Shown here: positions 8,554 to 57,501 of the stretch, one piece after another
How positions within the stretch are numbered: position 1 is the stretch's first letter
Layout: each line of letters begins with the position of its first letter
Source of the DNA: Actinomycetota bacterium
GTDB taxonomy: Bacteria > Actinomycetota > Actinomycetes > Mycobacteriales > Mycobacteriaceae
Assembly: GCA_018268465.1 (NCBI GenBank)
Contig: JAFDWN010000016.1
Span: 62,001 to 126,000, forward strand
Length of the DNA: 64,000 bases
Direction: 5' to 3'
Position numbers and translations under genes: made by a program
Notes under the pieces: generated by a model
Databases searched by the model: none
What the model was told of the DNA's origin: nothing
Seen by the model: only the letters and a program-made list of their open reading frames with translations

Positions 8554-10050
8554 TCAGGTGGTGAGTTGCTCCACCAGTTCGACGGCGCTGTCCACCGAAT
8601 CGAGCAACGCCCCCACGTGCGCCTTGCTGCCGCGCAGCGGCTCCAGTGTCGGGATGCGCACCAGCGAGTCTCCGCCCAGATCGAAGATCACCGAATCCCA
8701 GCTGGCCGCCGCGATGTCGGCGCCGAAGCGGCGCAGGCATTCGCCGCGGAAGTAGGCACGGGTGTCGGTGGGCGGATTGTCGATGGCGTCGAGGACCTGC
8801 TGTTCGGTGACCAGACGCTTCATCGAGCCGCGCGCCACCAACCGGTTGTACAGGCCCTTGTCCAGCCGCACGTCCGAATACTGCAGGTCGACCAGGTGCA
8901 GCCGGGGCGCCGACCAGCTCAGGTTCTCCCGCTGCCGGAATCCGTCGAGCAGGCGCAGCTTGGCGGGCCAGTCGAGCAGGTCGGCACACTCCATGGGGTC
9001 GCGCTCGAGTAGGTCGAGCACGTTCGCCCAGGTCTCCACGACGTGGCTGGCCCGGGGATCGGGATCACGGCTGTCGACCAGTTTGGCGACCCGGTCCAGG
9101 TAGATGCGCTGCATCGCCAGAGCGGTCAGTTCGCGGCCGTCGGCCAGCGCGACGGTGGCCCGCAGCGAGGGATCGCGGCTGATCACGTGCACCGCGTGGA
9201 CCGGCCGGGCCAGTGCCAGGTCGGACAGGTCCACACCCTCTTCGATGAGGTCAAGCACCAGCGAGGTGGTGCCGACCTTGAGGTAGGTCGACGTTTCGGC
9301 CAGATTGGCGTCGCCGATGATGACGTGCAGCCTGCGGTATTTGTCGGCATCGGCGTGCGGCTCGTCGCGGGTGTTGATGATGCCGCGCTTGAGTGTGGTC
9401 TCCAGGCCGACCTCGACCTCGATGTAATCCGCGCGTTGCGACAACTGGAACCCGGCTTCGTCGCCGGACGGACCGATACCCACCCGGCCGGACCCGGTGA
9501 TCACCTGCCGCGACACCATGAACGGTGTCAGCCCGCTGATCACCGCCGAGAACGGGGTCTGCCTGCTCATCAGGTAGTTCTCGTGCGAACCGTACGACGC
9601 GCCCTTGCCGTCGACATTGTTCTTGTACAGCTGCAGCCTGGCGGCCCCCGGGACGCTCGCGACGTAGCGGGCGGCTGCCTCCATCACCCGCTCACCGGCC
9701 TTGTCCCAGATGACGGCGTCGAGCGGGTCGGTGCATTCCGGCGCCGAGTACTCGGGGTGCGCGTGGTCGACGTACAGGCGCGCACCGTTGGTCAGGATCA
9801 TGTTGGCGGCGCCGACCTCGTCGGCGTCGACCACCGGAGGCGGTCCCGCCGAACGACTGAGGTCGAACCCACGGGCATCCCGCAGGGGCGATTCGACCTC
9901 GTAATCCCAGCGGGTGCGCTTGGCCCGCTGGATGCCCGCGGCGGCGGCATAGGCCAGCACCGCCTGCGTCGACGTCAGAATCGGATTCGCGGTCGGATCG
10001 GACGGCGAGGAGATGCCGTACTCGACCTCGGTTCCGATGATCCGTTGCAT
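8554..10050 (-). CDS. dop: Deamidase/depupylase Dop
   Basis: The 498-residue enzyme belongs to the carboxylate-amine ligase (glutamine-synthetase-like) fold shared with PafA. It starts [14 protein letters not shown], where the GTEVEYG strand carries the metal-binding Glu and is diagnostic. Residues around [19 protein letters not shown] and [19 protein letters not shown] match the active-site region and the Dop loop area. The enzyme activates Pup by deamidating its C-terminal Gln and also removes Pup from substrates. It ends 116 bases before pup and is divergent from the amidohydrolase gene, with about 130 bases between them for promoters. Confidence 0.95.
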
Positions 10051-42986: not shown

Positions 42987-43075
42987 GTCACCTTTCCTAC
43001 ACCGTCGCGGTCTTCGGTGCGGACACCGGGTTTTGGTCCCGGCGGTTCCATCCGATAGCCTTAGCTGCCCAGCGA

Positions 43076-43161
43076 GTCCGAGTGGCGGAATGGCAGACGC
43101 GCTAGCTTGAGGTGCTAGTGCCCTATTAACGGGCGTGGGGGTTCAAGTCCCCCCTCGGACA
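43076..43161 (+). tRNA. tRNA-Leu(GAG)
   Basis: The acceptor stem GTCCGAG (43076-43082) pairs with CTCGGAC (43154-43160) plus discriminator A. The D-arm TGGCGGAATGGCAGACGC is typical of class II tRNA-Leu. The anticodon stem CTAGC/GCTAG encloses loop TTGAGGT, giving anticodon GAG. A long variable arm (TGCCC...GGGCG) and a T-arm GGGGG-TTCAAGT-CCCCC follow. CCA is not encoded. It borders the accessory region on its left side, a usual place for integrative elements. Confidence 0.95.
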
Positions 43162-43249
43162 CAACCGGCGACACGACCCAGGTCGGCCGTCGCCTCAACC
43201 CCTCGCAGGTGGGGATCGCAGTCAAGCCGCAGCCCCAGGCTGATGTACT

Positions 43250-43548
43250 CGCGTCTCGTACCCAGCGGCGAGGTTGGGTCAACGCGAACGGTTCGGCGAG
43301 CACATCCCACGCATCACGGTGATCGTCAGTTCGCCCGGTGCGGTGGCGGCGATCGTCAGCCGATCGGCGCGCCGCGCCGCGGCCGGCGCATCGGACCGTT
43401 TGTGCCAATCGGCCAAGGATTGGCCGGTGACGATCCGCACCGCCAGAACATCGGTGGACCTGCCGATGCGAGCGGAGCGCACCGTCGGGATGAGGGTTCG
43501 CTCGGCGAGAGTGGCGGTCGCTGACTCCGCCAACATCGCTGCCCTCAG
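43250..43548 (-). pseudogene. Decayed fragment of an FtsK/TraSA-like DNA translocase
   Basis: Reading leftwards, the frame gives LIPTVRSARIGRSTDVLAVR, then IVTGQSLADWHKRSDA and APGELTITVMRG. This is the N-terminal pattern of FtsK-like transfer proteins from actinomycete integrative and conjugative elements. A one-base deletion near 43310 shifts the frame; the next frame continues DVLAEPFAL, restoring the expected RG-DVLAEPF. No ATPase domain remains. The assignment rests on pattern memory, not on alignment, and the left limit is uncertain. Confidence 0.45.
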
Positions 43549-43551
43549 CGT

Positions 43552-44004
43552 CTATCGCAATCGAATTAGCTTGCCCCGCCGCCCGTTCGAATGACGGGAT
43601 CTGCTTGCTAGGTGAAGTTCAGGGTGCTCGTAGGTAGTGGGTGAGCGCATTCCGATTGCTGAATGCCCACGTTGATGACTATGGAATCCCATCCATTTGT
43701 CAACTGCTGCAACCAATCCAGACTTCGTTACGAAGGTGTGCCGGTAGTGGAACTCGTGTTTGAACGTCGGCCACGACGATTCGGCGCCGGCGTTGTCCCA
43801 GATGCCGGTGGCCCCCATGGGCGGCGCAGACCGTGCCGTGAACACGCCGCAGCCCTGTCGTGGGAGGTTGCGCCCCACCATCGCCGACGCCACCAAGCCG
43901 GCTTCGGCCGGTTGACCACCGAGCCACCACTCGGCCCCGGCCCGGTCGGGCTGCAGGCGTTGGCCGGTCACCTCCAACCCGGGGCTCGTCGAGGCGACAG
44001 CCAC
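43552..44004 (-). mobile_element. IS3-family transposase OrfB remnant (C-terminal part)
   Basis: The minus-strand frame ends with a recognisable integrase-core tail: GIWDNAGAESSWPTFKHEF, YRHTFVTKSGLVAAVDKW and HQRGHSAIGMRSPTTYEHPE. The Glu in DNAGAES is the last residue of the DDE triad. Upstream, pieces such as NRPKP-LVASAM appear split over two frames and the first two Asp are missing, so it is inactive. No terminal inverted repeats were found around it. It marks past insertion or deletion at this junction. Confidence 0.75.
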
Positions 44005-44173
44005 CCCTACACCCTCATCTGCCGCACCCTCATCTGCAAAGAGCCAGATTCGTCGTGATGCTCCAGTTCAGCCGATGATCGTCCCGCATGTGGGGATACG
44101 CTCTGTTGCGTTGCGCGACTCTGTCCGACCGCGTTCTCGTGTGTAGATGCCCGACGCTTGATGAGGATGCCCC
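44005..44173 (+). promoter_or_regulatory. Leader region of the cyanophycin operon
   Basis: These 169 bases lie between the transposase remnant and cphA and hold no supported gene. The base composition is noticeably less GC-rich than the flanks. GAGG sits seven bases before the cphA ATG as the ribosome-binding site. I could not assign a sigma-A-type -35/-10 with confidence, and no operator was recognised. Confidence 0.4.
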
Positions 44174-46909
44174 ATGAACATCGATTCCATTCAGGTTTAT
44201 GTCGGTCCGAACGTTCATGCGCGCGAGCCGGTGATCCGGCTCAAGCTGGACGTCAAGCCGAGCTATGCCGAAACCCTCAAGGGCCTGGGGGCGGGCGTGA
44301 TCGACACATTGGCAGCGGTGCTGCCGGGCCTTGCGCTGGAACAGGCCGAGTGGCTTGCCGCATTACACGCCGGCGAGGGGCTTTCCATCGGCGATCTGGT
44401 CGCAAGGCTGGCTTTGGCACTTCAGCATGCCGCCGGCGTTGACGGCACACTAGCGTGGTCGGGATCGACGGGCGATCCAGATATTGTCGAGGTGTTCTAC
44501 AGCTACGGCAATGAGGACATCGGTATCGAGGCCGGCGAGGTTGCCTGCGACATGCTCGCGACCATCTCCCGTGCTGACTCCGATAATGAAGAGGCTCCCG
44601 ACCTCGGCAAGAACGTCGAGGATTTCCTGGCCTATGCCGACAGGCATTCTCTGGGGCCCTCGGCCATGGAATTGGTACGTGCAGCGCAGGCCCGCGACAT
44701 TCCGGTCTACCGGCTGAACGACGCCAGCCTGATCCAGGTCGGCGAGGGCAAGTATCAGCAGCGGATCGAGGCGGCACTGACGTCGAAAACCTCACATATC
44801 GCTGTCGAAATCGCCTCGGACAAGAACCTCTGCAACACGATCCTTGCCGATCTCGGTCTGCCCGTGCCGAGGCAGAAGCTGGTCTACAGCGTGGACGAGG
44901 CGATGAGGGCGGCCGACCGCATCGGTTATCCCGTGGTCGTCAAGCCGCTCGACGGCAACCATGGCCGGGGCGTCACCGCCAATATCACAGCCGAGGACGG
45001 CATCGCCGCCGCTTTCGAGACCGCCGATGCCGAAGGATCGGCCGTGTTGGTGGAGACCATGCTGCGCGGCGACGACCACCGGCTGCTGGTGGTCGATGGC
45101 CGGCTCGCCGCGGCGGCACGCCGGGTGCCGGGTCACGTGAAGGGCGACGGGCACCACACCATTGCCGAGCTGGTGGATATCGTCAATCAGGACCCGCGCC
45201 GAGGCGTCGGGCACGAAAACGTGCTGACGCGGCTCGAACTCGACAATCAGGCGAAGCGCTTGCTTGAGGAAAAGGGCTACACCGAAAAGACGGTCCCCGC
45301 CGAGGGCGAGGAGGTGTATCTGCGCAAGACCGCGAATATCTCCACCGGCGGCACGGCGGTGGATGTCACCGACACGATCCATCCCGACAACAAATTGATG
45401 GCCGAGCGGGCGATCCGGGCGATCGGGCTCGATATCGGCGCCGTGGATTTCCTGACCACCGATATCACCAGGAGCTATCGCGAGACCGGCGGCGGCATTT
45501 GCGAGATCAACGCGGGACCCGGCCTACGCATGCATATCGCGCCTTCCGAGGGCACGCCGCGCGACGTGGGCGGAGCGATCATGGACATGCTCTTTCCGCC
45601 GGGCACCCAGATGCACGTTCCCATCGCCGCCGTGACCGGAACGAACGGCAAGACCACGTGCTCACGCATGCTGGCGCACATCCTGAAAATGGCGGGCCAT
45701 GTCGTGGGGCAGACCTCCACCGACGCCGTGGTGATCGACGGCAACGTGACTGTCAAGGGCGACATGACCGGGCCGGTCTCCGCCAAGATGGTGCTGCGCG
45801 ATCCTTCGGTCGACATCGCGGTCCTGGAGACGGCGCGCGGCGGCATCGTCCGCTCCGGCCTGGGCTATAACTTTTGCGATGTCGGCGCGGTGCTGAACGT
45901 CGCGTCCGACCATCTCGGGCTCGGCGGCGTCGACACGCTGGACGGCCTTGCCCGGGTGAAACGCGTTGTCGCGGAAGTCACGCGTGGCACGGTGGTGCTG
46001 AACGCCGATGACGAGCAGACGCTGAAAATGGCGGCCTTCTCGCCCGCCAGGCATGTCATGTATGTGACGCGCAACCCGGAGCATGAGCTGGTGCGCGAAC
46101 ATATCCGGCTCGGCAAACTTGCGGTCGTTCTGGAGCAGGGGGTGAACGGCGACCAGATCGTGATATACGACAATGGCACACAGATGCCGCTGATGTGGAC
46201 CCAGCTCATCCCGGCGACACTGGAAGGCAAAGCGCTGCACAACGTCGAAAACGCCATGTTCGCCGCCGGCATGGCCTATGCGCTTGGCAAGACACTGGAT
46301 CAGGTCCGCACCGGACTGCGCACGTTCGATAACAGCTTCTTCCAGAGCCCCGGCCGGATGAATGTCTTCGACGAACACGGATTCCGCGTGATCCTCGACT
46401 ATGGGCACAACGAGGCGGCGGTGGGGGCCATGGTCGACTTGGTCGACAGGCTCAAGCAGCGCGGGCGCCGGATCGTCTGCGTCACCTGCCCGGGTGACCG
46501 GCGCGACGAGGACGTGGCGGCTATTGCGGCTAAGGTTGCCGGCCATTTCGACGCCTACATCTGCCACCGCGACGACGATCCGCGCGATCGCAGGCCCGAC
46601 GAGATGCCGAAGCTGATGCGGGCCGCCCTGATTGCCGAGGGTGTCGCGCCCGACGCGATCACCATCATCGAGGAGGAGGAAAAGGCCCTCGATGCGGCGC
46701 TTTCGCAGGCGCAACCCGACGATCTGGTGTTGTTCTTCTGCGAGGCGATTACGCGCTGCTGGAAGCAGATCATCCACTTCACCCCGAAATTCACCGCGCC
46801 CGGACCGGAGCCCGTCTCAAAGCGTCTGGCAGCATCCACCTTCGACGTTCCCGATGGCTTCGTTCTCACGTCGGATGATCGAGGTGTGCTGATCGTTCCG
46901 GCGAAATGA
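44174..46909 (+). CDS. cphA: Cyanophycin synthetase (CphA1)
   Basis: The 911-residue protein has the full three-part CphA1 plan. The N-terminal domain (about 1-160) is followed by GPSAMELVRAAQARDIP and KYQQRIEAALTSKTS. An ATP-grasp domain (about 215-480) contains VVKPLDGNHGRGV (Lys257), TANISTGGTAVDVT and ICEINAGPGLRMHIAPSEGT. A Mur-ligase-like domain (about 483-900) carries the P-loop GTNGKTT (Lys493), ETARGGIVRSGLGY, NVASDHLGLGG and LDYGHNEAA. CphA1 extends a poly-Asp chain and attaches Arg to each side chain using ATP. Codons are foreign: Tyr is mostly TAT here, unlike the neighbours. Closest in feel to alphaproteobacterial homologues. The next gene overlaps its stop (ATGA). Confidence 0.93.
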   Translation: MNIDSIQVYVGPNVHAREPVIRLKLDVKPSYAETLKGLGAGVIDTLAAVLPGLALEQAEWLAALHAGEGLSIGDLVARLALALQHAAGVDGTLAWSGSTGDPDIVEVFYSYGNEDIGIEAGEVACDMLATISRADSDNEEAPDLGKNVEDFLAYADRHSLGPSAMELVRAAQARDIPVYRLNDASLIQVGEGKYQQRIEAALTSKTSHIAVEIASDKNLCNTILADLGLPVPRQKLVYSVDEAMRAADRIGYPVVVKPLDGNHGRGVTANITAEDGIAAAFETADAEGSAVLVETMLRGDDHRLLVVDGRLAAAARRVPGHVKGDGHHTIAELVDIVNQDPRRGVGHENVLTRLELDNQAKRLLEEKGYTEKTVPAEGEEVYLRKTANISTGGTAVDVTDTIHPDNKLMAERAIRAIGLDIGAVDFLTTDITRSYRETGGGICEINAGPGLRMHIAPSEGTPRDVGGAIMDMLFPPGTQMHVPIAAVTGTNGKTTCSRMLAHILKMAGHVVGQTSTDAVVIDGNVTVKGDMTGPVSAKMVLRDPSVDIAVLETARGGIVRSGLGYNFCDVGAVLNVASDHLGLGGVDTLDGLARVKRVVAEVTRGTVVLNADDEQTLKMAAFSPARHVMYVTRNPEHELVREHIRLGKLAVVLEQGVNGDQIVIYDNGTQMPLMWTQLIPATLEGKALHNVENAMFAAGMAYALGKTLDQVRTGLRTFDNSFFQSPGRMNVFDEHGFRVILDYGHNEAAVGAMVDLVDRLKQRGRRIVCVTCPGDRRDEDVAAIAAKVAGHFDAYICHRDDDPRDRRPDEMPKLMRAALIAEGVAPDAITIIEEEEKALDAALSQAQPDDLVLFFCEAITRCWKQIIHFTPKFTAPGPEPVSKRLAASTFDVPDGFVLTSDDRGVLIVPAK

Positions 46910-49110
46910 CAGGGAGACGTGGCAGAGTCTCATTCGCTCATCGTGGGGAGTTCCACCCGAAACTCGCGATCGTCGGCGGCCGGCTGGAAGATGACAATGC
47001 CGCCGTCTATGACGAGATGCGACGTCTGGCGGGCGGAAGGATCGTCGTCTTCGCGACGGCGTCGTCGGTGCCTGACGAAGTCGGCGCCGAAACCGTCGGC
47101 GTGTTTTGCGCCCATGGCTTCGATGCCGTCCTGGCGGGGGTTCACGGCGCCGGGGCGGTCCAGGCCGCCCAAGACAAGGCGATCGCCGATCTCGTCGAAG
47201 ACTATGGCAACGTCTATTTCACCGGCGGCGACCAGGCCCTGATCACCGGGGCGCTGGCGCCGAAGGGCAGGGAAAGCCGAGTGCTGAAGGCGATCCGCCA
47301 AGCGCAGCGCAACGGTGCGATGGTCGCCGGGTCGAGTGCTGGGGCCGCCATCATGTCCGATGTGATGATTTCCGGTGGCACGTCGCTGGAAGCTGCGACC
47401 TACGGTGTGGTCGATGACCCGGACCAGCCCGGAATGCTGCTGGAGCCGGGGCTCGGCTTCTTCCCATGGGGCATGATCGACCAGCATTTCATCAAGCGCG
47501 GCCGGTTCGGCCGGCTGGTCGTCGGCATGCAGGCGTCCGGCGCGAAGCGCGGCTTCGGCATAGACGAAAACACCGCCTTGTTCGTCGAGGGCAAGATTGC
47601 GCGGGTGATCGGCGAATATGGCGCCTTCGTGCTCCATCTCGAGGAGGCGAAAGTCGATCGCCGCCGCAAGCTGATCGAAAACATCGGTTTCAGCTATGCC
47701 GACAACGGTGACAGCTATGACCTGGAAACAGGTGAGGTCCTCCCCGGTCCGGGCAAGCGGCCGGTGACCCGGCGCGACATCATCTACGAGGCCCCCGCCC
47801 GCTCGCTCCGCAACGTCTTCGGCGCCTATACGCTCTACGATCTCGTGGCGCGGCTGGTGCTTGGGGACCCCGAGGCCTATCCGACGGATCGCGCCCGCGC
47901 GATAGAGCCCAGGGCGGGTTGCGCCACCAGCGTCGAGATATCCCGCCAGGGCGACCATGCGGCCGCCTACATTCCTCGAGGCGGGCGTGGCTTCCGCATG
48001 ACGGCAGTGGATTTTCGGGCCAGCATGCAGACGCGTCGGCTCAATGCGGCGCAACTGGCGGCGAACCGGCGGGCGGCGCTGTCCCGCGACTACGGTGAGA
48101 AACCGGGAAAGCATGCGCGCGTGATGATGCTGGGCTCGGCGCCGCTCGACCACGGCAGCCCGCTGCTTGCGGAATTGGCGTCGCATTGCGAGGGGCCGGT
48201 GGGTGTGCTTGCCGCCGCTTCCGCCGAGCCCCGCGCGACCGCGCGCGAATATGTCGGCGCCTTGCGCGGCCACGGCGTCGAGGCCACCGATCTGCGCGTC
48301 ACCATCGACAATGTTGATCGCCGGATGCGCGAGGAAGCGCTGGTCGAGCAGATCGCCGCCCTGCGCACCATCATCCTGACCGGCGGTAACCAGATCAGGC
48401 TGGTGGAATCCTTGCTCTACCGTGGCGATGTCACGCCGCTGCTGACCGCCATTGCGCGAGCGCGGGCGGCCGGCGCGATGATCGTCGGGGTCAGCGGCGC
48501 GGCCTCGGCGCTGTCCGGTTTCATGATCGGCGGCGGCACGTCCTACGAAGCGCTGCGCTTCGGCATTGCCTCGGATATGGGACGACACGGATTGGTGATC
48601 CAGGAAGGGTTGGGATTTTTTGGCGCCGCCATCGTCGACCAGAAACTGTCGTCCTCACGCCGTCTCGGCCGCCTTGCCGTCGCCTGCGCCGAGGAAGGCG
48701 CACGCTTCGGGCTCGGTCTTCTGGAAGAAAGCGGCGTCATCGCAAACCACGACAACAGCCGCCTCACCGCGATCGGCGCGCGCGGCGCCGTCCTGGTCGA
48801 GATCGATCCGCTCAAGACCGAGCTTGCGGGTGACGAATTCATCGCGCCCGACACGAGGCTGTGTTTCGCAGGCCCGGGGGACGTCATCGACATGGCGGCC
48901 GGGACCGTCACCCGGCTGGCACCGGCTGCCGCTTCCGCCGCCGTGCTGGATACGCTCGTTGCCGAACTGATCGAGGAATGCGTCGGCAATGCCGGCCCGG
49001 TGACCACGCCTGGTGTCACACAGGAAGCGCATATTGCCTTGCGCTACCGCTCACATGAGGATGGCACCGGCCATCTCGATATTGAGAGCATCCGTGATCG
49101 GCACGGATGA
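46906..49110 (+). CDS. cphB: Cyanophycinase with two tandem S51-type domains, second one degenerate
   Basis: The 734-residue protein is about 2.5 times the usual CphB length. Domain 1 (about 18-260) is complete: nucleophile Ser144 in GSSAGAA, His194 in DQHFIKRGRFGRL and Glu in GIDENTA. Domain 2 (about 425-670) repeats the same fold with landmarks GVSGAAS (Ser530), EGLGFFGAAIVDQKL and GLGLLEESG, but the His is replaced by Lys580, so it should be inactive. A linker of about 160 residues lies between them. No signal peptide, so it acts on intracellular cyanophycin, releasing beta-Asp-Arg. The start is set by the ATGA overlap with cphA; the N-terminal 17 residues are atypical and AGGGAG followed by an out-of-frame GTG hints at a small frameshift. 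Confidence 0.88.
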   Translation: MTGRRGRVSFAHRGEFHPKLAIVGGRLEDDNAAVYDEMRRLAGGRIVVFATASSVPDEVGAETVGVFCAHGFDAVLAGVHGAGAVQAAQDKAIADLVEDYGNVYFTGGDQALITGALAPKGRESRVLKAIRQAQRNGAMVAGSSAGAAIMSDVMISGGTSLEAATYGVVDDPDQPGMLLEPGLGFFPWGMIDQHFIKRGRFGRLVVGMQASGAKRGFGIDENTALFVEGKIARVIGEYGAFVLHLEEAKVDRRRKLIENIGFSYADNGDSYDLETGEVLPGPGKRPVTRRDIIYEAPARSLRNVFGAYTLYDLVARLVLGDPEAYPTDRARAIEPRAGCATSVEISRQGDHAAAYIPRGGRGFRMTAVDFRASMQTRRLNAAQLAANRRAALSRDYGEKPGKHARVMMLGSAPLDHGSPLLAELASHCEGPVGVLAAASAEPRATAREYVGALRGHGVEATDLRVTIDNVDRRMREEALVEQIAALRTIILTGGNQIRLVESLLYRGDVTPLLTAIARARAAGAMIVGVSGAASALSGFMIGGGTSYEALRFGIASDMGRHGLVIQEGLGFFGAAIVDQKLSSSRRLGRLAVACAEEGARFGLGLLEESGVIANHDNSRLTAIGARGAVLVEIDPLKTELAGDEFIAPDTRLCFAGPGDVIDMAAGTVTRLAPAAASAAVLDTLVAELIEECVGNAGPVTTPGVTQEAHIALRYRSHEDGTGHLDIESIRDRHG

Positions 49111-49131
49111 AACTACAAAGATCGGACAGTC

Positions 49132-49476
49132 ATGTATTTCGATGGGACCACCCTGACCACGCTGCTTTCCGATGCGGATAAAGCGGCTGCAAACGCCCCT
49201 GCCATTGCCGCCGCAGGGCCGCGGTACACCTCACCGCTCGCCGTCATCGAGGCCGCCATGGAGCTGCCCGAACTGGACGAGGCCGCCGTGACGGCCTTTC
49301 TCGATGCGCAGGGGATCGAACTGCGCGACATGCCCCCCGGTCATCGTTTGATCGCAGGGGCGCTGGCGACGGAAGGCAAGCTGAACGATCGCCTGCATGC
49401 CGCCTGTGCGGCCTATTACGAGACGGACGTGTTCGCGCTTCCCGCCGGCGAGCCGGAAGCTCCGCCGACGGAATGA
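49132..49476 (+). CDS. Small PIN-like (VapC-related) protein in the cyanophycin operon
   Basis: The 114-residue protein starts MYFDGTTLTTLL, continues with RYTSPLAVIEAAMELP and ends with LNDRLHAACAAYYETDVFAL. The spacing resembles shortened VapC toxins of the Rv0623-linked kind, with acidic residues Asp4, Glu40 and Asp86 in the positions of the PIN metal site. No antitoxin gene is adjacent. It lies 21 bases after the cyanophycinase and 22 before cphZ, and has the same foreign codon use, so it travelled with them. It may be an RNase, or a PIN fold reused for another job; I cannot say which. Confidence 0.45.
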   Translation: MYFDGTTLTTLLSDADKAAANAPAIAAAGPRYTSPLAVIEAAMELPELDEAAVTAFLDAQGIELRDMPPGHRLIAGALATEGKLNDRLHAACAAYYETDVFALPAGEPEAPPTE

Positions 49477-49498
49477 GACAGGTGGAGTGAAAACCGCG

Positions 49499-50593
49499 AT
49501 GCGCCAGACCTACGATCTGCCGGGCTCGCCACATCGCCTGACCGTGCTGCGCTTCGGCGCGGCGGGGACGGGCGGGAAAGCCTATTTGCAGGCCGGACTG
49601 CATGCCGACGAGTTCCCCGGCATGCTGGTCTTACGCATTCTGGCCGGGCACCTGGCCGAAGCGGAAGCTCGCGGCGCGGTCCACGGTGAAATCCTGCTGG
49701 TGCCGCAGGCAAACCCGATCGGCCTGACGCAGACCGGCACCAGCTTCCTGTCCGGTCGGATCGAGAATGGCACGGGAGAGAATTTCAACCGGAACTATCC
49801 CGATCTGTCCGACCTCGGTGGCTTGTCGCTGGGGCCGGACGCGGCGTCGAATGTCCAAACGATCCGGGCCGCGATGGCGGCGAAACTTGCGGCGACGGCG
49901 CCGACGCCGGATGGGGCACTGGCACATCTGCGTCACAGATTGCTGACGCTCGCTCATGACGCCGACCTCGTGCTCGATCTTCACGCCGACAACGAGGCTG
50001 AGCCGCACATGTATGTCGGCCCGGCGCTGTGGCCGGCAGCCGAGGATATTGCCGCGGCGATCGATGCGCGAGCGGTGCTTCTGTCTGAGGTGTCGGGCGG
50101 TCACCCCTTCGATGAGGCCTGCGCCGGTCCATGGTGGGTGCTGGCCGCGAACTATCCAGATCTGCCCATTCCGCCGGCCTGCCTCGCCGCCACGCTGGAG
50201 ATGGGCAGCAATGATGATGTCGATCCCGAACGCGCCGCCGATCAAGCCACGGCGCTACTGCGGATGTTGCAGGCACGCGGTTTTGTCGATGGGTCGGGCG
50301 GACACCCGCGTTTGTCCTGCCGCGCCACGGCGCTGACGGCGATGGCGCAAGTGCGCTCGCCGGTCACGGGCCTCGTCGTCTATCGCCGTCGGCTGGGCGA
50401 TCTGGTCCGCAAGGGCGATCTCGTCGCCACCGTGATCGATCCGCTCGGCGAGGAGACGGAATTGCTGGCCGAGACCGACGGGCGGCTCTTTGCCCGCCAT
50501 AGCCAGCCCTATGCCTGGCCGGGACGGGTGATCGGCAAGATCGCCGGCGAAATTCCGCTGGAGGGCAGAAAGGGCAATTTGCTTTCGGATTGA
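49499..50593 (+). CDS. cphZ: CphZ-type beta-Asp-Arg dipeptide hydrolase (AstE/aspartoacylase family)
   Basis: The 364-residue zinc hydrolase of the succinylglutamate desuccinylase/aspartoacylase family has zinc ligands His35 and Glu38 in GLHADEFPG and His162 in LDLHADNEAE. The substrate motif is NFNRNYPD, the catalytic Glu lies in LEMGSNDDVDP, and a C-terminal barrel-sandwich domain contains VRSPVTGLVVYRRRLGDLVRKG. Members clustered with cyanophycin genes (CphZ, and AotO of Pseudomonas) split beta-Asp-Arg into Asp and Arg. Its place after CphA and cyanophycinase argues for that activity, completing degradation. A GTG 12 bases upstream is an alternative start; GGTGGAG precedes both. Confidence 0.8.
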   Translation: MRQTYDLPGSPHRLTVLRFGAAGTGGKAYLQAGLHADEFPGMLVLRILAGHLAEAEARGAVHGEILLVPQANPIGLTQTGTSFLSGRIENGTGENFNRNYPDLSDLGGLSLGPDAASNVQTIRAAMAAKLAATAPTPDGALAHLRHRLLTLAHDADLVLDLHADNEAEPHMYVGPALWPAAEDIAAAIDARAVLLSEVSGGHPFDEACAGPWWVLAANYPDLPIPPACLAATLEMGSNDDVDPERAADQATALLRMLQARGFVDGSGGHPRLSCRATALTAMAQVRSPVTGLVVYRRRLGDLVRKGDLVATVIDPLGEETELLAETDGRLFARHSQPYAWPGRVIGKIAGEIPLEGRKGNLLSD

Positions 50594-50690
50594 TGGGCTT
50601 CGCCGATCGCGTAAGGCCGTCGCGCAAAACGGCGGCTCGGGTCCTGGGCGGATGCGCTGACGGAGACCAGGCAGCGGGTGGGAGCCGAGG

Positions 50691-51734
50691 TCACACGACC
50701 TCGGGGGTGCGGCGGTAGGTGCTCGGAGCGCACCCGAACCAGCGTCGGCACGACCGGGTGAGCACGCTCTGTTCGGAATACCCCAACAGCCGGGTGAGGT
50801 GGTCGAGGCTGATGTCGGTGTCGCGCAGGTATCTTTCGGCGGATTGGCGGCGGACCTTGTCGACCAGCGCCCCGAAGCTGGTCCCTTCGGCACTGAGTCG
50901 GCGCTGTAGTGCTCGGGGATGCATCTGCAGATGCGCGGCGACGAGTTCGATCCGCAACGAACCCGTCGGCAGCAGCATGCCGGTCAACTCCGCGATAGTC
51001 TGGGCCACCGTCGGAGCCGGCCGCGCGGCCATCTCGGAAAGGACCATGACCGCGGCGTCGTGCGCCGGACCGTCGTGGTGCAGCCGTCGCCGGAGGTCGG
51101 CGCGGCGTAGCACGAATCCGGCTGCCGGTGCGGCGAAATGCGGTGTGCATCGGAAGTCGCGGACGTAGTCCGACGCCGGCGCCAACGCCGAATGCGGCAG
51201 ATGAACCGCGATGGGCGTGTAGTCGGCGCCCAGGATCGCGCGCAGGATCTGCAGTGCGGCACCCAACGACAGCTCGGTAGCCTGGCGCTGGCAGGGCGGC
51301 GGATCGAGCAGGATGCCGAATTCGAAGAACGCCGTGCCGTCGTCGGCGGAGGGATTCAGGCGCACCCGCAGGCCGGGGCTGTGCGCGCTGATGTATGTGG
51401 CGAAGACCGCGAAGGCGTCGGCCAGTGTCGACGCCGTTTGCGCAGCAATACCCACCGGGCCGATCGTTTCGATCCCGCGCCGGGCGGCCAACCTCCGTCC
51501 GAAGTCTCGTGCCCTGGTGACGTCGGCGGCGAGTTCGAGCGCCTCGACGGCGCCGCGCAGCGGGATGACGCGGTCGTATCGACCGGCATCCTGCGGCGAG
51601 ACCCCTGCGGCCACCAAGATCGGGTCGCCGTCCGCACCGAGTTCGGCCACCAGATCCCGGAACCCCAGCAGGCAGGTCGCGCGGATAGCGTGCACGGCTG
51701 GAATCTCGATCAGATGTCGCGAAATGTCAAGCAC
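50691..51734 (-). CDS. AraC-family transcriptional regulator
   Basis: The 347-residue protein has an N-terminal arabinose-binding-like ligand domain (about 20-200; the Arabinose_bd type common in mycobacterial AraC proteins) and a C-terminal double helix-turn-helix (about 245-340) with VAAHLQMHPRALQRRLSAEG and ITRLLGYSEQSVLTRSCRRWFG-like recognition helices. The GTG at 51734 is the most natural start; the open frame extends 12 codons further to a TTG. It converges with cphZ, with 97 bases between. Codon use is mycobacterial, so it probably belongs to the host side. Whether it controls the truncated BKACE gene next door or anything in the cph operon is unknown. Confidence 0.85.
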   Translation of the reverse strand: MLDISRHLIEIPAVHAIRATCLLGFRDLVAELGADGDPILVAAGVSPQDAGRYDRVIPLRGAVEALELAADVTRARDFGRRLAARRGIETIGPVGIAAQTASTLADAFAVFATYISAHSPGLRVRLNPSADDGTAFFEFGILLDPPPCQRQATELSLGAALQILRAILGADYTPIAVHLPHSALAPASDYVRDFRCTPHFAAPAAGFVLRRADLRRRLHHDGPAHDAAVMVLSEMAARPAPTVAQTIAELTGMLLPTGSLRIELVAAHLQMHPRALQRRLSAEGTSFGALVDKVRRQSAERYLRDTDISLDHLTRLLGYSEQSVLTRSCRRWFGCAPSTYRRTPEVV

Positions 51735-51805
51735 CCAGCTCGGCGGACTCGCACAATCGCCACCGTGCAATCACCTGAGGCGGGGCCGGCCCATCGCCCG
51801 GGCTT

Positions 51806-52240
51806 GTGGGGTCCTGCCCTGCCGGTCATGACGGAATGGGATCCGTCATGGACGCCGGCGTGCCGGGCGGTGAGCGCCTATCCATGGCGCGCGAACGTGC
51901 TCCCATCTCGACCATATGCATCGCGCTGGGCCAGCATGTGCGGGCGGGCATCGAAGACAACCTCTGGGGACCGATGAAGGGGCAGCGGTTCACCACTGTG
52001 GAGATGGTCCGCAAGATGGTAAGTATCGCAAGCGAATTGGGTCGTCCGATCGCGACCGCCGAAGAGACCAAGCGGATTCTCAAACTCGGTGAGTGGTACG
52101 ACACCGCGGAGGAGACGCTGTTCAAGCTCGGCTTGCCGCCCAACCCGCAAGACGGTGAACGCGGATTCCTGACCTACGACACCGACGGACGGATTCCCGC
52201 ACTCGCGGAAACGCCATCGGATCCCAGATACGTGCTGTGA
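51806..52240 (+). pseudogene. C-terminal fragment of a BKACE (DUF849) enzyme
   Basis: From about residue 15 this frame reads RAPISTICIALGQHVRAGIED and NLWGPMKGQRFTTVEMVRKM, then ELGRPIATAEETKRILKLGE. This matches the last 120 or so residues of beta-keto acid cleavage enzymes (3-keto-5-aminohexanoate cleavage type), which are normally near 300 residues. The N-terminal two thirds of the TIM barrel with the zinc ligands are missing, and what precedes is unrelated AraC promoter sequence. It is a deletion remnant lying next to its probable former regulator. Confidence 0.75.
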
Positions 52241-52296
52241 CCCCACTGCACGTCAGCACCCGACAGCAAGGAAGTGACCGAGTGACAGGAATTCCG

Positions 52297-52569
52297 ATGA
52301 GAACAATCGCGGCGACGCTGTTCGCGGCGCTGACCGCAACCGTCGTCCCCCTCGTCATCGCCCCGGCTGCGCAGGCCGACGTGTGCGGCGATGTCGGCGG
52401 CCGGCATGTCGAGGTCGGCGGGTGTACCGACATTGCCGGCGACGTCGTGGCCGGCGCTACGGTCGCCACCGACGACGACGCCGCCGCCCAGGCCGCCGCG
52501 GGGCTGCCACCCTGTTACACCCCGGCGGGGGTTCCCTACTACACCCCGGCCGGATACCCCTGTAACTGA
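52297..52569 (+). CDS. Small secreted protein with YTPAG repeats
   Basis: The 90-residue protein has a clean signal peptide (MRTIAATLFAALTATVVPLV, cleaved after AQA). The mature part of about 60 residues has four Cys and ends PPCYTPAGVPYYTPAGYPCN, two copies of a Tyr-Thr-Pro-Ala-Gly unit between two Cys. AGGA six bases before the ATG supports this start; a GTG 15 bases upstream is also possible. No family recognised; similar tiny exported proteins occur in mycobacteria. Function unknown. Confidence 0.7.
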   Translation: MRTIAATLFAALTATVVPLVIAPAAQADVCGDVGGRHVEVGGCTDIAGDVVAGATVATDDDAAAQAAAGLPPCYTPAGVPYYTPAGYPCN

Positions 52570-52642
52570 CAGGATGCCCGCCGCTTGGCTGCCTGGCCGA
52601 TCCCGTTCTGACAACCGGATCGCCCCGCCGCCGGCGGCGCGG

Positions 52643-53350
52643 TCACAGCCAGCGCGGCGGCGCGATACCGGGATCGGCGTGCAGGCCGGCGGCTCCCCGC
52701 CCCGCCATCCAGCGCACCACCGCGGGCAACGGCCCCGCCACAGTGGGACCACCCGAGCCCAGAGTGACCGGCGCCCTGCCGTCGGCGAGTAGCACGATGC
52801 CGGGTGTCGGGTCGGCGTTTCGCCACCCGCCGGCGATATCTGCCATCAGCCCGTCGAGGACGGATTCGGGAAAATCGGCGAACCCAGCGCCGTTGTCGAG
52901 GTCCACGGCGTGGATCCACACCTCCCGCGCGCGCATCCACACCGTTTCCGTCGCGGGCACCGACCGGCCCTGCGCAGTGCGCACGGTCGCCCCCCAGGCC
53001 GCATCGGGCAGACTGCGCCATTTCTCGTCAAGCCGCGCCACGGTGTCGTCGAACAGGTTCCGCAGGACTCCCGGGCTCAGCGTGGCGCCCGCGCCGATCT
53101 CCTCGGCCCGGTGCTGTGCCGACGGGTACATCGGCGTCTCCACGCCAGTAGCTGCCCAGTCCAGCAGTCGGCAGATCGCCGCGGCGTTGTAGCCGACATG
53201 GGCCACCAGGTGACGGCGGCTCCAGCCCGTCAGGAGCGTCGGCGCGTCCAACTGCTCGTCGGTCAGCGTCGCCAGCCCCTGCGCGAACAGCGCGGTGCCG
53301 CGGCGGGTGATGGCCAGTCGCTCGGGCAGTTCGAGGTCATCGAAAGCCAC
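52643..53350 (-). CDS. Mycothiol-dependent maleylpyruvate isomerase-like protein (DinB fold)
   Basis: The 235-residue protein has the four-helix DinB/MDMPI domain in its first 150 residues: LTDEQLDAPTLLTGWSRRHLVAHVG gives the first metal His, and WMRAREVWIHAVDLDNG gives the Glu and last His. A C-terminal SCP2-like part follows (IVLLADGRAPVTLGSGGPT). The family uses mycothiol as cofactor, which this organism can make through MshC. Substrate unspecified; only some members isomerise maleylpyruvate. GTG start chosen to give the family N-terminus. Confidence 0.82.
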   Translation of the reverse strand: MAFDDLELPERLAITRRGTALFAQGLATLTDEQLDAPTLLTGWSRRHLVAHVGYNAAAICRLLDWAATGVETPMYPSAQHRAEEIGAGATLSPGVLRNLFDDTVARLDEKWRSLPDAAWGATVRTAQGRSVPATETVWMRAREVWIHAVDLDNGAGFADFPESVLDGLMADIAGGWRNADPTPGIVLLADGRAPVTLGSGGPTVAGPLPAVVRWMAGRGAAGLHADPGIAPPRWL

Positions 53351-53457
53351 GGGGCCACAGCCTACGTGGCGCATTTGATCCGGGTGGTGTTCTTGGCCGA
53401 TCCCAAACCCTCGACCCGTGACCCCGGCCTTACCCGCGGGTGGGGTGGGGCCGGAGG

Positions 53458-56400
53458 TCAGTACACGTCGCGCACGTAACGCTTGTCCGCCACCAACTCG
53501 CGCTTGTACTCGTGGGTCTGTTCGTCGGACAACCCGCCGTGCTCCTTGATGATGGCGCTCAGCGCGGTGTCGACGTCCTTGGCCATTCGGGTGGCGTCAC
53601 CACACACGTAGAAGTGCGCTCCATCCTCCAGCCAGCGCCAGACGTCGGCACCGTAGTCGAGCATCTTGTGCTGCACGTACACCCGTTTGGCCTGATCACG
53701 GGAGAAGGCCAGGTCGAGCCGGTTCAGGAAGCCGTCGGCGACCATATCCTCAAGATCGGTGCGGTAGTAGAAGTTCTCGCTGCGATGCTGGTCGCCGAAG
53801 AACAGCCAGTTGCGTCCGGTGTGCCCGAGCGCGCGCCGTTCCTGCAGGAAGCCGCGGAACGGGGCGATACCGGTGCCCGGCCCCACCATGATCATCGGTG
53901 TCGAGGATTCCTCGGGCGGGCGGAAATGGGGTGAGCGCTGCAGGAACACCGGCACCGGCGCATCGGCGCGGTCGGCGAGGAACGTCGAGCAGACCCCGCC
54001 GCGGGCACCGCCGTCGGCGCCGTGGTAACGCACCACCGACACCGTCAGCTGCACCTCGTGCGGGCTGACGAGCGGGCTGGAGGAGATCGAGTAGTTCCGC
54101 GGGGTCAGCCGCACGAGTACGTCGCGCCACAGCTCGGGCTCGGCGTCCACCCCGAACTCGGCGACGATGTCCAGCCCGTTGCGGTTGACCAGCCACTTCT
54201 GTAGCCGGTCGCGTGGCGCGGCGAGCGTCTCCGCCGCCGACCGGTTGCGGCTGTGTTCCGCGACGAACCGCAGCAAGTCGGGGGTTACCCGGCAGATGTC
54301 GTAGCGCCGGGTCAGCGCGTCGCGCAGGGTCTCCTCCGCACCGTCAATCTCGACGACGTGCTCACCGTCCAGGCCGGTGGCTGCCAACCATGCGGCCACC
54401 ACGGCCGGATCGTTGGGGGCGAGCACGCCCAGCGAGTCGCCCACCGAGTAAGCCACGTCGTATTCGGAGATGTCGAAACCGAACTGCCGCACCTCTTTCG
54501 CTGACCCGGGGGCGGTGAGCACGGTGTTGCGGCACAGCGGGGCCAGGACCGGATTGCCGCGGGTGAACGGATCAGCCCCGGCAGGTTTACGCCGGGCCGT
54601 GGCGGGGCTGGGCGCCGACGCGGGGGTACCGACCATCTCGGCCACCCGATCGGCCCAGCGGGTCATCGGCTCGTCGTCGTAGGCCTCGCATTCGGTGCGC
54701 GCGACCAGGGAGGTCGCGCCGAGCGCGGTCAGCCGGCCGTCGAGGGATTTCGCGTGCCCGCAGAAGTTCTCGTAGGACCGGTCGCCGATGCCCAGGACGG
54801 CGTAGCGCACCCCGTCGAGGCTGGGCGCGTCCGGAGACTCCAGCCGGCTCCAGAAGTCCGCGCCGTTGTCCGGCGGCCCGCCGTCGCCGAAGGTGCTCGT
54901 CACCACCAGCACCTCACGCGCCGCGGCCAGGTCGGACAACGCCAGATCGTCCATGTTCACCAGCCGCGCGCCGGGCAGCCGTTCGGCGAGCTGGCCCGCG
55001 AAATCCTCGGCGGTTCCGGTCTGCGACGCCCACAGCACCAGCGGCCCGTCGGCGGGCTCCTCGGGACCCGCGGTGTTCCGCGAGTAACGGCCCGCCAGCA
55101 GACCGTTCACCCACAGCCGGAGCGGCGCGCTCACCGGCGCGGAGTCCGGCAGCACCGGAACACCCGCCACATCGTCGGTCAGAGCGCTGAAAAACGCTGC
55201 AAGGTAGATCTTCTCGTCTTCGCCGGGAACGGGTTCGGGTTGCCCGACCAGGCCGAGTCGCACCGCGATCGGGTGGGCGCCCGCCGGTGTCGTGACCGGC
55301 GCCAGCGGGCGCAGCCCGACCGCACACACCTTGAATTCGGGCTGCAACGAGTCCGGGTCGACCGCGTCGTTGGTCAACGCGTTGACGGTCAGGTACTCGC
55401 CGTGTTCGTCGTTCCAGTGGAACGGGACGAAGCAACTGCCGGGCCGGATCCGGTCGGTGAGGACCGCGGGCAGCACGGCACGGCCCCGGCGCGAGGTCAG
55501 CTCGACGGACTGTCCGGGGGCGATGTCCAGGTCGGCGGCGTCCGCCGGGTTCACCTCGACGAACGGGCCGCGGTTGAGTTTGTTGAGTTTGTCGACCTTG
55601 CCGGTCTTGGTCATGGTGTGCCACTGATGCTGCAGACGGCCGGTGTTGAGGACATACGGGAAGTCGGTGACGGCCGGATCGGGCAGCTCCGCGGCCTCCA
55701 CATGCGGGCGAGGGTGGAACACGGCGCGCCGCGACGGCGTCGGGAACGCCAGCCTGGGGCGGTGGCCGTGCTCGTCGACGAACAACGTCTGACTCACACC
55801 GTCGTTGAGGTAGCGGATGGGGTGGCGGTCCCGGTCTCCCCCGGGCAGGTCCTGCGGGGGCACCGGCCACTGCAACGGTGTGCGGCGCAGCCGCTCGTAG
55901 GTGGCCCCCCGCAGGTCGTAGCCGGTCTTCGGGTTGGAGAACCGCCGGATCTCGTCGAAGATCTGTTCGCTGGACTTGAAGGCGAACGCCTCGCCGAACC
56001 CCAGATGTTCGGCGACGGCGCAGATCAGCTCCCAGTCGGGGCGGGCATCGCCGACGGGCGGGATGGACTGCGTCAACAGGGTCAGGTTGCGTTCGGAATT
56101 GACCATCACCGCATCGGATTCGGCCCACAGCGTCGCGGGCAGCACGATATCGGCGTACCGGTTGGTGGCGGTGCCGTGATACACGTCCTGGGTGATGACG
56201 AGTTCCGCGGTCTCCAGACCATTGATCACGGTCCTGCGGTTCGCCATGCTGGCCACCGGATTGGTGCAGATGATCCAGCAGGCCTTGATCTCGCCGTCGG
56301 CCATTCTGCGGAACATCTCGACGGTGCCCGGCCCGACCTCGGAGCGGATTGCGCCCGGTTCCAGATCCCACTGGGTTTCCACGAACTCCCGGTCGTCGGC

Positions 56401-57501
56401 GGCGAGCACCGCGCGCTGTCCCGGCAGACCGGGGCCCATGTACCCCATTTCGCGTCCGCCCATGGCGTTGGGCTGACCGGTCAGCGACATCGGCCCGCTG
56501 CCCGGACGGCAGATCGCGCCGGTCGCCAGATGCAGATTGCAGATCGCGTTGGTGTTCCAGGTGCCGTGGGTGCTCTGGTTGAGGCCCATGGTCCAGCAGC
56601 TCATCCAGTCGCCGGCCTCGGCGATCATGCGCGCCGCGCCGCGGATGTCGGCTTCGTCCAGCCCGGTGATCTCGGCGACGCGCGCCGGCGGGTAGTCGGC
56701 GAGGAACGCGGGCATCGCTTCCCACCCCGTGGTGTGCTCGGCGATGAATTCCTGCTCGATGTCACCGTTTTCGACCAGCAGATGCAGCAGGCCGTTGAGC
56801 AGCGCCAGGTCGGTGCCGGGCCGGATGGGCAGGTAGAGATCGGCGTGCTCGGCGGTGGTGGTGCGGCGGGGGTCGACGACGATCAGCTTGGCGCCCGCCT
56901 TGAGACGCTCGGCCATCCGCAGGTACAGGATGGGATGACAGTCGGCCATATTCGAGCCGATGACGAAAAACAGGTCCGTGCAGTCGAAGTCGGTGTACGA
57001 CCCGGGCGGCCCGTCGGCACCGAGGGACTGTTTGAAACCTGTTCCCGCGCTGGCCATGCACAATCGGGAATTCGACTCGATGTGCACGGTGCGCAGATAA
57101 CCCTTGGCCAGCTTGGTGGCCAGATACTGCGCCTCGATCGACATCTGACCCGAGACGTACAACGCGACCGCATCGGGCCCGTGCTCGTCGACGATGGTGC
57201 GCAGCCGCCTGGCCGCCTCGGCGACGGCGTCGTCCACCGGGGTGGGGGTGAGAACGTCGTCCCGGCTACCCCGCACCAGCGCCGTCGTGAGGCGATCGTC
57301 GTCGGCCCGCATCATCTCGGCATGCGTGGCCCCTTTTGTGCACAGCCGGCCGAAGTTGGTCGGGTGCAGCTTGTCACCGCTGACCCGGGCGATGACCGGT
57401 CGCCCGGTCGCCGGATCGGCGGTCGTCTGCACGGAGATACCACAGCCCACACCGCAGTACGAACATGCGGTGCGGGCTGTGGTGCTGTCGGGAACCGTCA
57501 T
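53458..57501 (-). CDS. nasN: Assimilatory nitrate reductase fused to a CysJ-like NADPH flavoprotein
   Basis: The 1347-residue protein is made of two enzymes. Residues 1-720 are a molybdopterin oxidoreductase: 4Fe-4S Cys in CSYCGVGCG and CTKG, and the Mo-ligand Cys region NSRLCMASAGTGFKQSLG. Residues about 820-1347 are a sulfite-reductase-flavoprotein-like electron donor: flavodoxin motif WASQTGTAEDFAGQL near 824, the FAD domain with RNYSISSSP, and NADPH motifs GPGTGIAPFRGFLQERR. It should reduce nitrate to nitrite in the cytoplasm directly with NADPH. The ATG lies nine bases after the narK stop, so both share a transcript. I recall the M. smegmatis homologue being called NasN; the symbol is offered with that caution. 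Confidence 0.9.
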   Translation of the reverse strand: MTVPDSTTARTACSYCGVGCGISVQTTADPATGRPVIARVSGDKLHPTNFGRLCTKGATHAEMMRADDDRLTTALVRGSRDDVLTPTPVDDAVAEAARRLRTIVDEHGPDAVALYVSGQMSIEAQYLATKLAKGYLRTVHIESNSRLCMASAGTGFKQSLGADGPPGSYTDFDCTDLFFVIGSNMADCHPILYLRMAERLKAGAKLIVVDPRRTTTAEHADLYLPIRPGTDLALLNGLLHLLVENGDIEQEFIAEHTTGWEAMPAFLADYPPARVAEITGLDEADIRGAARMIAEAGDWMSCWTMGLNQSTHGTWNTNAICNLHLATGAICRPGSGPMSLTGQPNAMGGREMGYMGPGLPGQRAVLAADDREFVETQWDLEPGAIRSEVGPGTVEMFRRMADGEIKACWIICTNPVASMANRRTVINGLETAELVITQDVYHGTATNRYADIVLPATLWAESDAVMVNSERNLTLLTQSIPPVGDARPDWELICAVAEHLGFGEAFAFKSSEQIFDEIRRFSNPKTGYDLRGATYERLRRTPLQWPVPPQDLPGGDRDRHPIRYLNDGVSQTLFVDEHGHRPRLAFPTPSRRAVFHPRPHVEAAELPDPAVTDFPYVLNTGRLQHQWHTMTKTGKVDKLNKLNRGPFVEVNPADAADLDIAPGQSVELTSRRGRAVLPAVLTDRIRPGSCFVPFHWNDEHGEYLTVNALTNDAVDPDSLQPEFKVCAVGLRPLAPVTTPAGAHPIAVRLGLVGQPEPVPGEDEKIYLAAFFSALTDDVAGVPVLPDSAPVSAPLRLWVNGLLAGRYSRNTAGPEEPADGPLVLWASQTGTAEDFAGQLAERLPGARLVNMDDLALSDLAAAREVLVVTSTFGDGGPPDNGADFWSRLESPDAPSLDGVRYAVLGIGDRSYENFCGHAKSLDGRLTALGATSLVARTECEAYDDEPMTRWADRVAEMVGTPASAPSPATARRKPAGADPFTRGNPVLAPLCRNTVLTAPGSAKEVRQFGFDISEYDVAYSVGDSLGVLAPNDPAVVAAWLAATGLDGEHVVEIDGAEETLRDALTRRYDICRVTPDLLRFVAEHSRNRSAAETLAAPRDRLQKWLVNRNGLDIVAEFGVDAEPELWRDVLVRLTPRNYSISSSPLVSPHEVQLTVSVVRYHGADGGARGGVCSTFLADRADAPVPVFLQRSPHFRPPEESSTPMIMVGPGTGIAPFRGFLQERRALGHTGRNWLFFGDQHRSENFYYRTDLEDMVADGFLNRLDLAFSRDQAKRVYVQHKMLDYGADVWRWLEDGAHFYVCGDATRMAKDVDTALSAIIKEHGGLSDEQTHEYKRELVADKRYVRDVY

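Follow-up and report, generated by a model that had tools for sequence, protein, structure and literature searches.

A described relative of the system reported here belongs to the gammaproteobacterium Tatumella morbirosei, whose cyanophycin synthetase 1 (TmCphA1) is, in passages of PMC9262961, highly active with a primer, devoid of primer-independent activity and the source of 247 mg of polymer in E. coli. According to the same passages, a Cx19HxxEH site in the N domain of CphA1 enzymes cuts nascent polymer into primers; the site is complete in 83% of nr70 CphA1s and missing from TmCphA1, and remnant polymer or other small molecules are suggested as primers for CphA1s without it (PMC9262961). 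Among Actinomycetota, passages of PMC10206079 count 35 complete genomes with CphA1, all of which also have a cyanophycinase and a dipeptidase. Here, we describe a four-gene cphA1 operon on a 64,000-nucleotide stretch (herein the window; positions 62,001 to 126,000 of contig JAFDWN010000016.1) from a member of the Mycobacteriaceae. It is very probably a working cyanophycin storage-and-use operon that a mycobacterial ancestor acquired from a Rhodobacteraceae-like donor.

The four operon genes and their products

A first, sequence-only reading had proposed four tightly packed genes at 44174-50593, and the open reading frame (ORF) coordinates and family matches confirm them (Table 1). All four ORFs lie on one strand; the cyanophycinase ORF overlaps cphA1 by 4 bases, and gaps of 21 and 22 bases precede the third gene, which encodes a small PIN-fold protein, and separate it from cphZ. 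The mechanically called cphZ ORF begins at 49397, within the PIN-fold gene; the likely start is instead the ATG at 49499, because the alignments of relatives begin there. The same genes recur in the same order across other mycobacterial loci (71-94% identity, except for one 19-residue piece at 68%), so the arrangement is not due to chance. Contamination or mis-assembly was considered, 5.86% contamination being listed for the source genome, and rejected as unlikely for the operon region: the left flank aligns with 13 same-genus genomes (its own counted) and the right flank in three of the eight loci examined, the window is free of any N, and two single-contig genomes (G237 and G009) also carry the operon.

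CphA1 scores 1058.8 bits against NF010623 (cut-off 877) and 995.5 against TIGR02068 (cut-off 850), and thus has the full-length N, G and M domains at both curated cut-offs; the Cx19HxxEH site, given its frequency among CphA1s, was not required for membership. The best solved relative is Protein Data Bank (PDB) entry 7LGN. Identity to T. morbirosei CphA1 is 73% (665/909); the translation from strain LMG 23360 reads as the 7LGN chain wherever both alignments overlap, and this gene was therefore taken as the TmCphA1 of the literature. In the G and M domains, the stretches KPLDGNHGRG, DHRLLVV, TANISTGG, GLRMH and GTNGKTT match the same or nearly the same stretches in cyanobacterial enzymes, and the substrate- and ATP-binding signatures align with the 7LGN, 7LG5 and 7WAC chains, as judged by stretch rather than per residue (residue roles from passages of PMC9427784). 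The concern that the protein might be another ATP-grasp/Mur ligase fusion was checked and is not borne out.

The second product scores 229.4 to TIGR02069 (cut-off 126.6), in two matched stretches, and the profile matches resolve it into two S51 domains in tandem. The Ser144/His194/Glu221 triad of domain 1 is intact in all 27 rows with data (of the 31 aligned rows, some from closely related metagenome-assembled genomes [MAGs], four are without the domain 1 part). The catalytic His of domain 2 is replaced in 29 of 29 rows, by Lys (19 rows; Lys580 in the window) or Asn (10 rows), and the catalytic Ser is Gly in 11 of 29. The proposed assignment as a cyanophycinase thus stands, with the correction that the enzyme is a tandem whose second domain is an inactive-looking pseudo-cyanophycinase. 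This tandem length is common to Paracoccus, Sinirhodobacter, Amaricoccus and Tatumella; the gene is single-domain-sized in all five plasmid cyanophycin loci examined (of 22 plasmid records). The literature searched yielded no description of the tandem form, and the word "tandem" in the passages of PMC9239234 refers to mass spectrometry.

The third product matches the PIN family PF01850 weakly (26.3 bits; cut-off 23.6). A structure model, obtained for this protein only, predicts a VapC-like fold by fold comparison; when the PIN alignment was searched against PDB sequences, VapC30 was matched weakly and the only other matches, to vinculin, looked like chance. We judged the residues by what we take to be the VapC acid pattern. 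The first acid (D4) and the second (E40) are each present in 25 of 26 rows and the third position is variable, so that the nuclease acids are only partly kept (the third and fourth positions were placed by eye). No gene for a VapB antitoxin adjoins, the gaps on either side being too short to hold one. The PIN-like label given to this protein therefore holds for the fold; in its incomplete acids, lack of space for VapB and fixed position in a metabolic operon, it differs from VapC toxins. Literature linking cyanophycin with a PIN domain, judged by title and abstract, held nothing related. Non-catalytic helper roles are probable for domain 2 of the cyanophycinase and for the PIN-fold protein. 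In another locus (L064), the tail of the PIN-fold protein is encoded by a 15-base tandem repeat of 8.3 copies (8941-9065).

The fourth product matches PF24827 (AstE_AspA_cat), and its best solved matches are 8EIN (E=1.4e-119) and 8EIP (E near 1e-119), both labelled succinylglutamate desuccinylase by the structure search. We take these two entries to be CphZ, and His35, Glu38, His162 and Glu234 to have its metal and catalytic roles. All four residues are kept in the 26 full-length rows (27 rows in total); 8EIP has Ala where the window protein has Glu234, which would fit a catalytic mutant. The CphZ assignment made from the sequence is thereby upheld.

Together, the CphA1, cyanophycinase and CphZ assignments support the make-and-use cycle that the sequence-only reading had proposed. 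With ATP, the G domain of CphA1 would add Asp and its M domain would then add Arg, giving poly-Asp with Arg side chains that would precipitate as granules; domain 1 of the cyanophycinase would cut the polymer to beta-Asp-Arg, and CphZ would split this into Asp and Arg. Like Tatumella CphA1, the window enzyme is predicted to depend on residual polymer or other small primers to start chains. Storage of arginine and nitrogen as cyanophycin is, in all likelihood, the function. Alternatively, a different amino acid, lysine for instance, might form the side chains of a cyanophycin-like polymer, or the product might be short and soluble; CphA1 enzymes can accept alternative amino acids (PMC8050183), and the permease linked to the operon in relatives (see below) does not tell arginine from lysine. 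We consider this unlikely given the 73% identity to an enzyme proven to make cyanophycin and the presence of a CphZ-type dipeptidase.

Table 1. Features of the operon and of the stretch around it (window coordinates)
Feature	Position	Strand	Remarks
cphA1 (cyanophycin synthetase 1)	44174..46909	+	911 aa: N domain, ATP-grasp G domain, Mur-ligase-like M domain
Tandem cyanophycinase	46906..49110	+	734 aa; domain 2 ~405-670
Small PIN-fold (VapC-like) protein	49132..49476	+	114 aa
cphZ, zinc-peptidase-type beta-Asp-Arg dipeptidase	49499..50593	+	364 aa
tRNA-Leu(gag)	43076..43162	+	Left edge of variable stretch
IS3-type transposase C-terminal remnant	43552..44004	-	Between tRNA-Leu and operon
Variable stretch	43163..53457		Between conserved flanks (tRNA-Leu side; 53458-57501 ORF side)

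Distribution, origin and selection

The sequence-only reading knew of no mycobacterial example. In a genus sample of 396 genomes (the source genome counted), 15 match TIGR02068 at E 1e-100, and 14 of these, again including this one, have a cphA1 of the operon type (84-94% identity over pieces); the fifteenth (G095) holds a different fusion protein. Among the carriers, which also comprise MAGs, named ones include Mycolicibacterium xanthum Y57, M. litorale F4 and Mycobacterium sp. M26. All four genes are seen in 12 of the 14; the contig ends within the cyanophycinase gene in G288 and G347, and a contig end truncates cphA1 in G391. In an order sample of 298 genomes, 21 match TIGR02068 at E 1e-100 and 20 exceed its cut-off, the operon type accounting for two of these. 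In a class sample of 296 genomes, 30 match the window CphA1 at E 1e-100; two (G000, the source genome, and G123) are counted in both samples, and the remaining 28 matches are 40-47% identical. The main text of PMC10206079 contains no word starting "mycobacteri". No attribution of cyanophycin to mycobacteria was found in passages of the literature searched, from which subscription papers were out of reach, and "cyanophycin" with "Mycolicibacteri*" returned nothing in the searchable literature.

Other CphA-like proteins were met in these genomes. The G095 fusion (L041, 6217-11430; 1737 aa) joins CphA-like N, G and partial M regions to a MurF-like ligase and a PGA_cap capsule domain; its CphA score of 618.7 bits is under the 877 cut-off, and it is possibly an undescribed polyamide or capsule synthetase. 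G330 has two nearby CphA-like genes (L042, 4633-6822 and 7740-10520) close to a WS/DGAT-like ORF; the 729-aa product has no Pfam Mur match, and the 926-aa product scores under the CphA cut-offs. G032, G391, G347 and G288 likewise have a second CphA-like match. Two short contigs labelled as Acidobacteria and Gammaproteobacteria MAGs (L049 and L066) hold operon copies with cyanophycinases 89-90% identical to that of the window and are probably mis-binned mycobacterial DNA.

In a maximum-likelihood tree of 49 CphA1-type rows, from which the broken mycobacterial copies and one native row with an internal stop were left out, 13 mycobacterial CphA1s form one clade (100/100), joined by Paracoccus limosus (89/74) and then by Sinirhodobacter populi (100/99). 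The 22 native actinobacterial CphA1s are placed elsewhere, and two very divergent mycobacterial CphA-like rows lie outside, on long branches. The tree and the 83% identity to S. populi fit a single entry into the mycobacterial lineage, and horizontal acquisition from an alphaproteobacterial, Rhodobacteraceae-like lineage is the best reading of these sequences. A vertical actinobacterial origin is not supported by the tree placement, nor by the identity of only 40-47% to native enzymes. Carriage by a plasmid was likewise considered and rejected: a DNA search with 43060-52300 gave only short tRNA-end matches in seven plasmid records, and the best plasmid CphA1 in protein searches is 54% identical.

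Pairwise ratios of nonsynonymous to synonymous substitution (dN/dS), taken between the window and up to seven mycobacteria plus two Rhodobacteraceae, are 0.12-0.21 for cphA1, 0.22-0.34 for the cyanophycinase gene and 0.14-0.27 for cphZ, best read as purifying selection on the operon. Compared with that of rpoB in seven relatives (G009 excluded), operon dS is lower for four (M. xanthum, G237, G210 and G032), higher for M26 and mixed for G209 and G330. The two degradative genes could also mark a locus for scavenging the cyanophycin of other organisms, with CphA1 secondary, and published utilisation loci join cyanophycinase genes, a dipeptidase and a transporter (passages of PMC10206079). The clustered cyanophycinase-dipeptidase loci in those passages, however, were tallied across genomes that lack cphA1; the window operon opens with cphA1, whose dN/dS range is the lowest of the three enzymes, which makes a scavenging role extremely unlikely.

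Of 19 mycobacterial-type loci, 11 have an amino-acid permease within ~5 kb of the operon (two are partial, cut at contig ends). Among the eight without one, seven sit on contigs that begin within cphA1 or the cyanophycinase gene, leaving the upstream side unseen; the M. xanthum locus has room and no match. The permease is also near the operon in five of six Rhodobacteraceae loci, the sixth contig beginning inside cphA1, and had no match in the Tatumella and Burkholderia loci. Seven of eight permeases tested combine PF13520 with PF13906, and we take the PF13906-bearing ones to be of the "cationic" amino-acid type. Six mycobacterial permeases are 88-95% identical to one another and only 55-57% to two Paracoccus copies, and 11 of the 14 carrier genomes hold two permease matches. 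A separate recruitment of the mycobacterial permeases is thus possible and would argue independently for a role tied to arginine.

Several observations weigh against a working, horizontally acquired storage operon. Its enzyme activity, granules, regulation and any benefit to the cell are predictions from genes, residues, phylogeny and selection. A promoter scan for sigma-70-type sites found no promoter-like site in the operon region; a scan for terminator-like sites gave 8 inside operon genes against 4.5 expected. As to the donor, sampling was small (non-actinobacterial relatives came from one relative search and five plasmids), and the other Paracoccus join the tree next with weak support (86/52), followed by Tatumella and an Amaricoccus MAG. 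No permease lies in the window or is linked to the operon in this genome; a 72% identical homologue stands on another contig (C44). The HxxEH columns of the window CphA1 read D74, A77 and R78 (in an alignment that includes the 7LG5 chain), and none of the three residues is kept in any of the 20 rows holding these columns (the count covers the H, E and H columns, the Cys column standing outside it). CphA1 is therefore predicted to be primer-dependent. Both points bear on the claim that the gene set is "closed, with no missing step", which went too far: the primer-making N-domain site (PMC9262961) is absent and the primer source unexplained, and of the permease found near the operon in many relatives this genome has a homologue elsewhere.

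The operon is also rare in the genus (14/396), and reading frames are broken in two copies, with cphA1 frameshifted in M. litorale F4 (G009) and both cphA1 and the cyanophycinase gene broken in the MAG G312; either the trait may be dispensable or these sequences may be faulty. The rarity and the breaks could also mark a passenger operon, silent or decaying in mycobacteria, as could the IS3 remnant alongside and the GC content at third codon positions. The latter is 0.74-0.81 in the four genes; of seven ORFs nearby but beyond the variable stretch, six have 0.83-0.91 and the seventh 0.68. A silent or decaying passenger is nonetheless very unlikely: the remaining 12 of 14 copies show no break (contig ends cut three of them), the three enzymes have the low dN/dS values above and the permease linkage recurs. 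A functioning storage operon remains the preferred reading.

The stretch surrounding the operon

The left conserved flank ends at 43162 with tRNA-Leu(gag) and the right flank starts at 53458. The corresponding flanks are separated by ~1.6 kb in G012, by 4.9 kb in G002 and by 6.9 kb in G011; for the remaining five of the eight loci, the fetched stretch contained a match to the left flank only. Across all eight, nothing convincing was found for the window interval between the flanks. A tRNA-derived att repeat was sought up to 54000, with no exact tRNA-end match of at least 12 bases. None of the other mycobacterial loci retrieved contained the genes that flank the window operon, and in G009 the tRNA-side locus (2.44 Mb) is far from the operon (5.25 Mb). 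An Rfam scan returned nothing except tRNA, and a repeat scan of the window only short partial repeats.

An AraC gene at 50691-51770 was considered as an operon regulator; it has no match in the other loci compared, and no such role is claimed. On the far side of the variable stretch, a 144-aa ORF (51806-52240) matches only the C-terminal part of BKACE (206-274 of 274) and is a gene fragment. The 1347-aa ORF at 53458-57501 is, by inspection, molybdopterin nitrate-reductase-like with a flavodoxin/reductase-like C-terminal part.

Comparison with known cyanophycin systems

Mycobacteria are known to hold reserves of lipid, polyphosphate and glycogen. A polymer reserve of nitrogen and arginine would, if real, add a storage strategy for surviving starvation in bacteria whose dormancy has drawn much study, and the operon would be a clear case of an entire storage pathway crossing from Proteobacteria to Actinomycetota. 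Three parts remain unexplained: the pseudo-cyanophycinase domain and the PIN-fold protein, both conserved, and the primer source, which poses a directly testable problem.

The T. morbirosei locus shares the order cphA1, tandem cyanophycinase, cphZ with the window; besides CphA1, its cyanophycinase is 58% and its CphZ 61% identical, and its CphA1 likewise lacks HxxEH (passages of PMC9262961). It differs in having no match to the PIN-fold protein and in its gammaproteobacterial host. Native actinobacterial CphA1s belong to the same enzyme family as the window protein and form a separate clade at the lower identity given above. The Sinirhodobacter and Paracoccus loci share the tandem cyanophycinase and the PIN-fold protein with the window, and four of them (S. 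populi, P. limosus, P. lutimaris and a Paracoccus MAG) have all four genes in the same order; the 18-kb locus of P. amoyensis has no CphZ match. These loci differ in their alphaproteobacterial hosts and in the amino-acid permease nearby. The window operon is a horizontally acquired example of this known operon type, not a new type.

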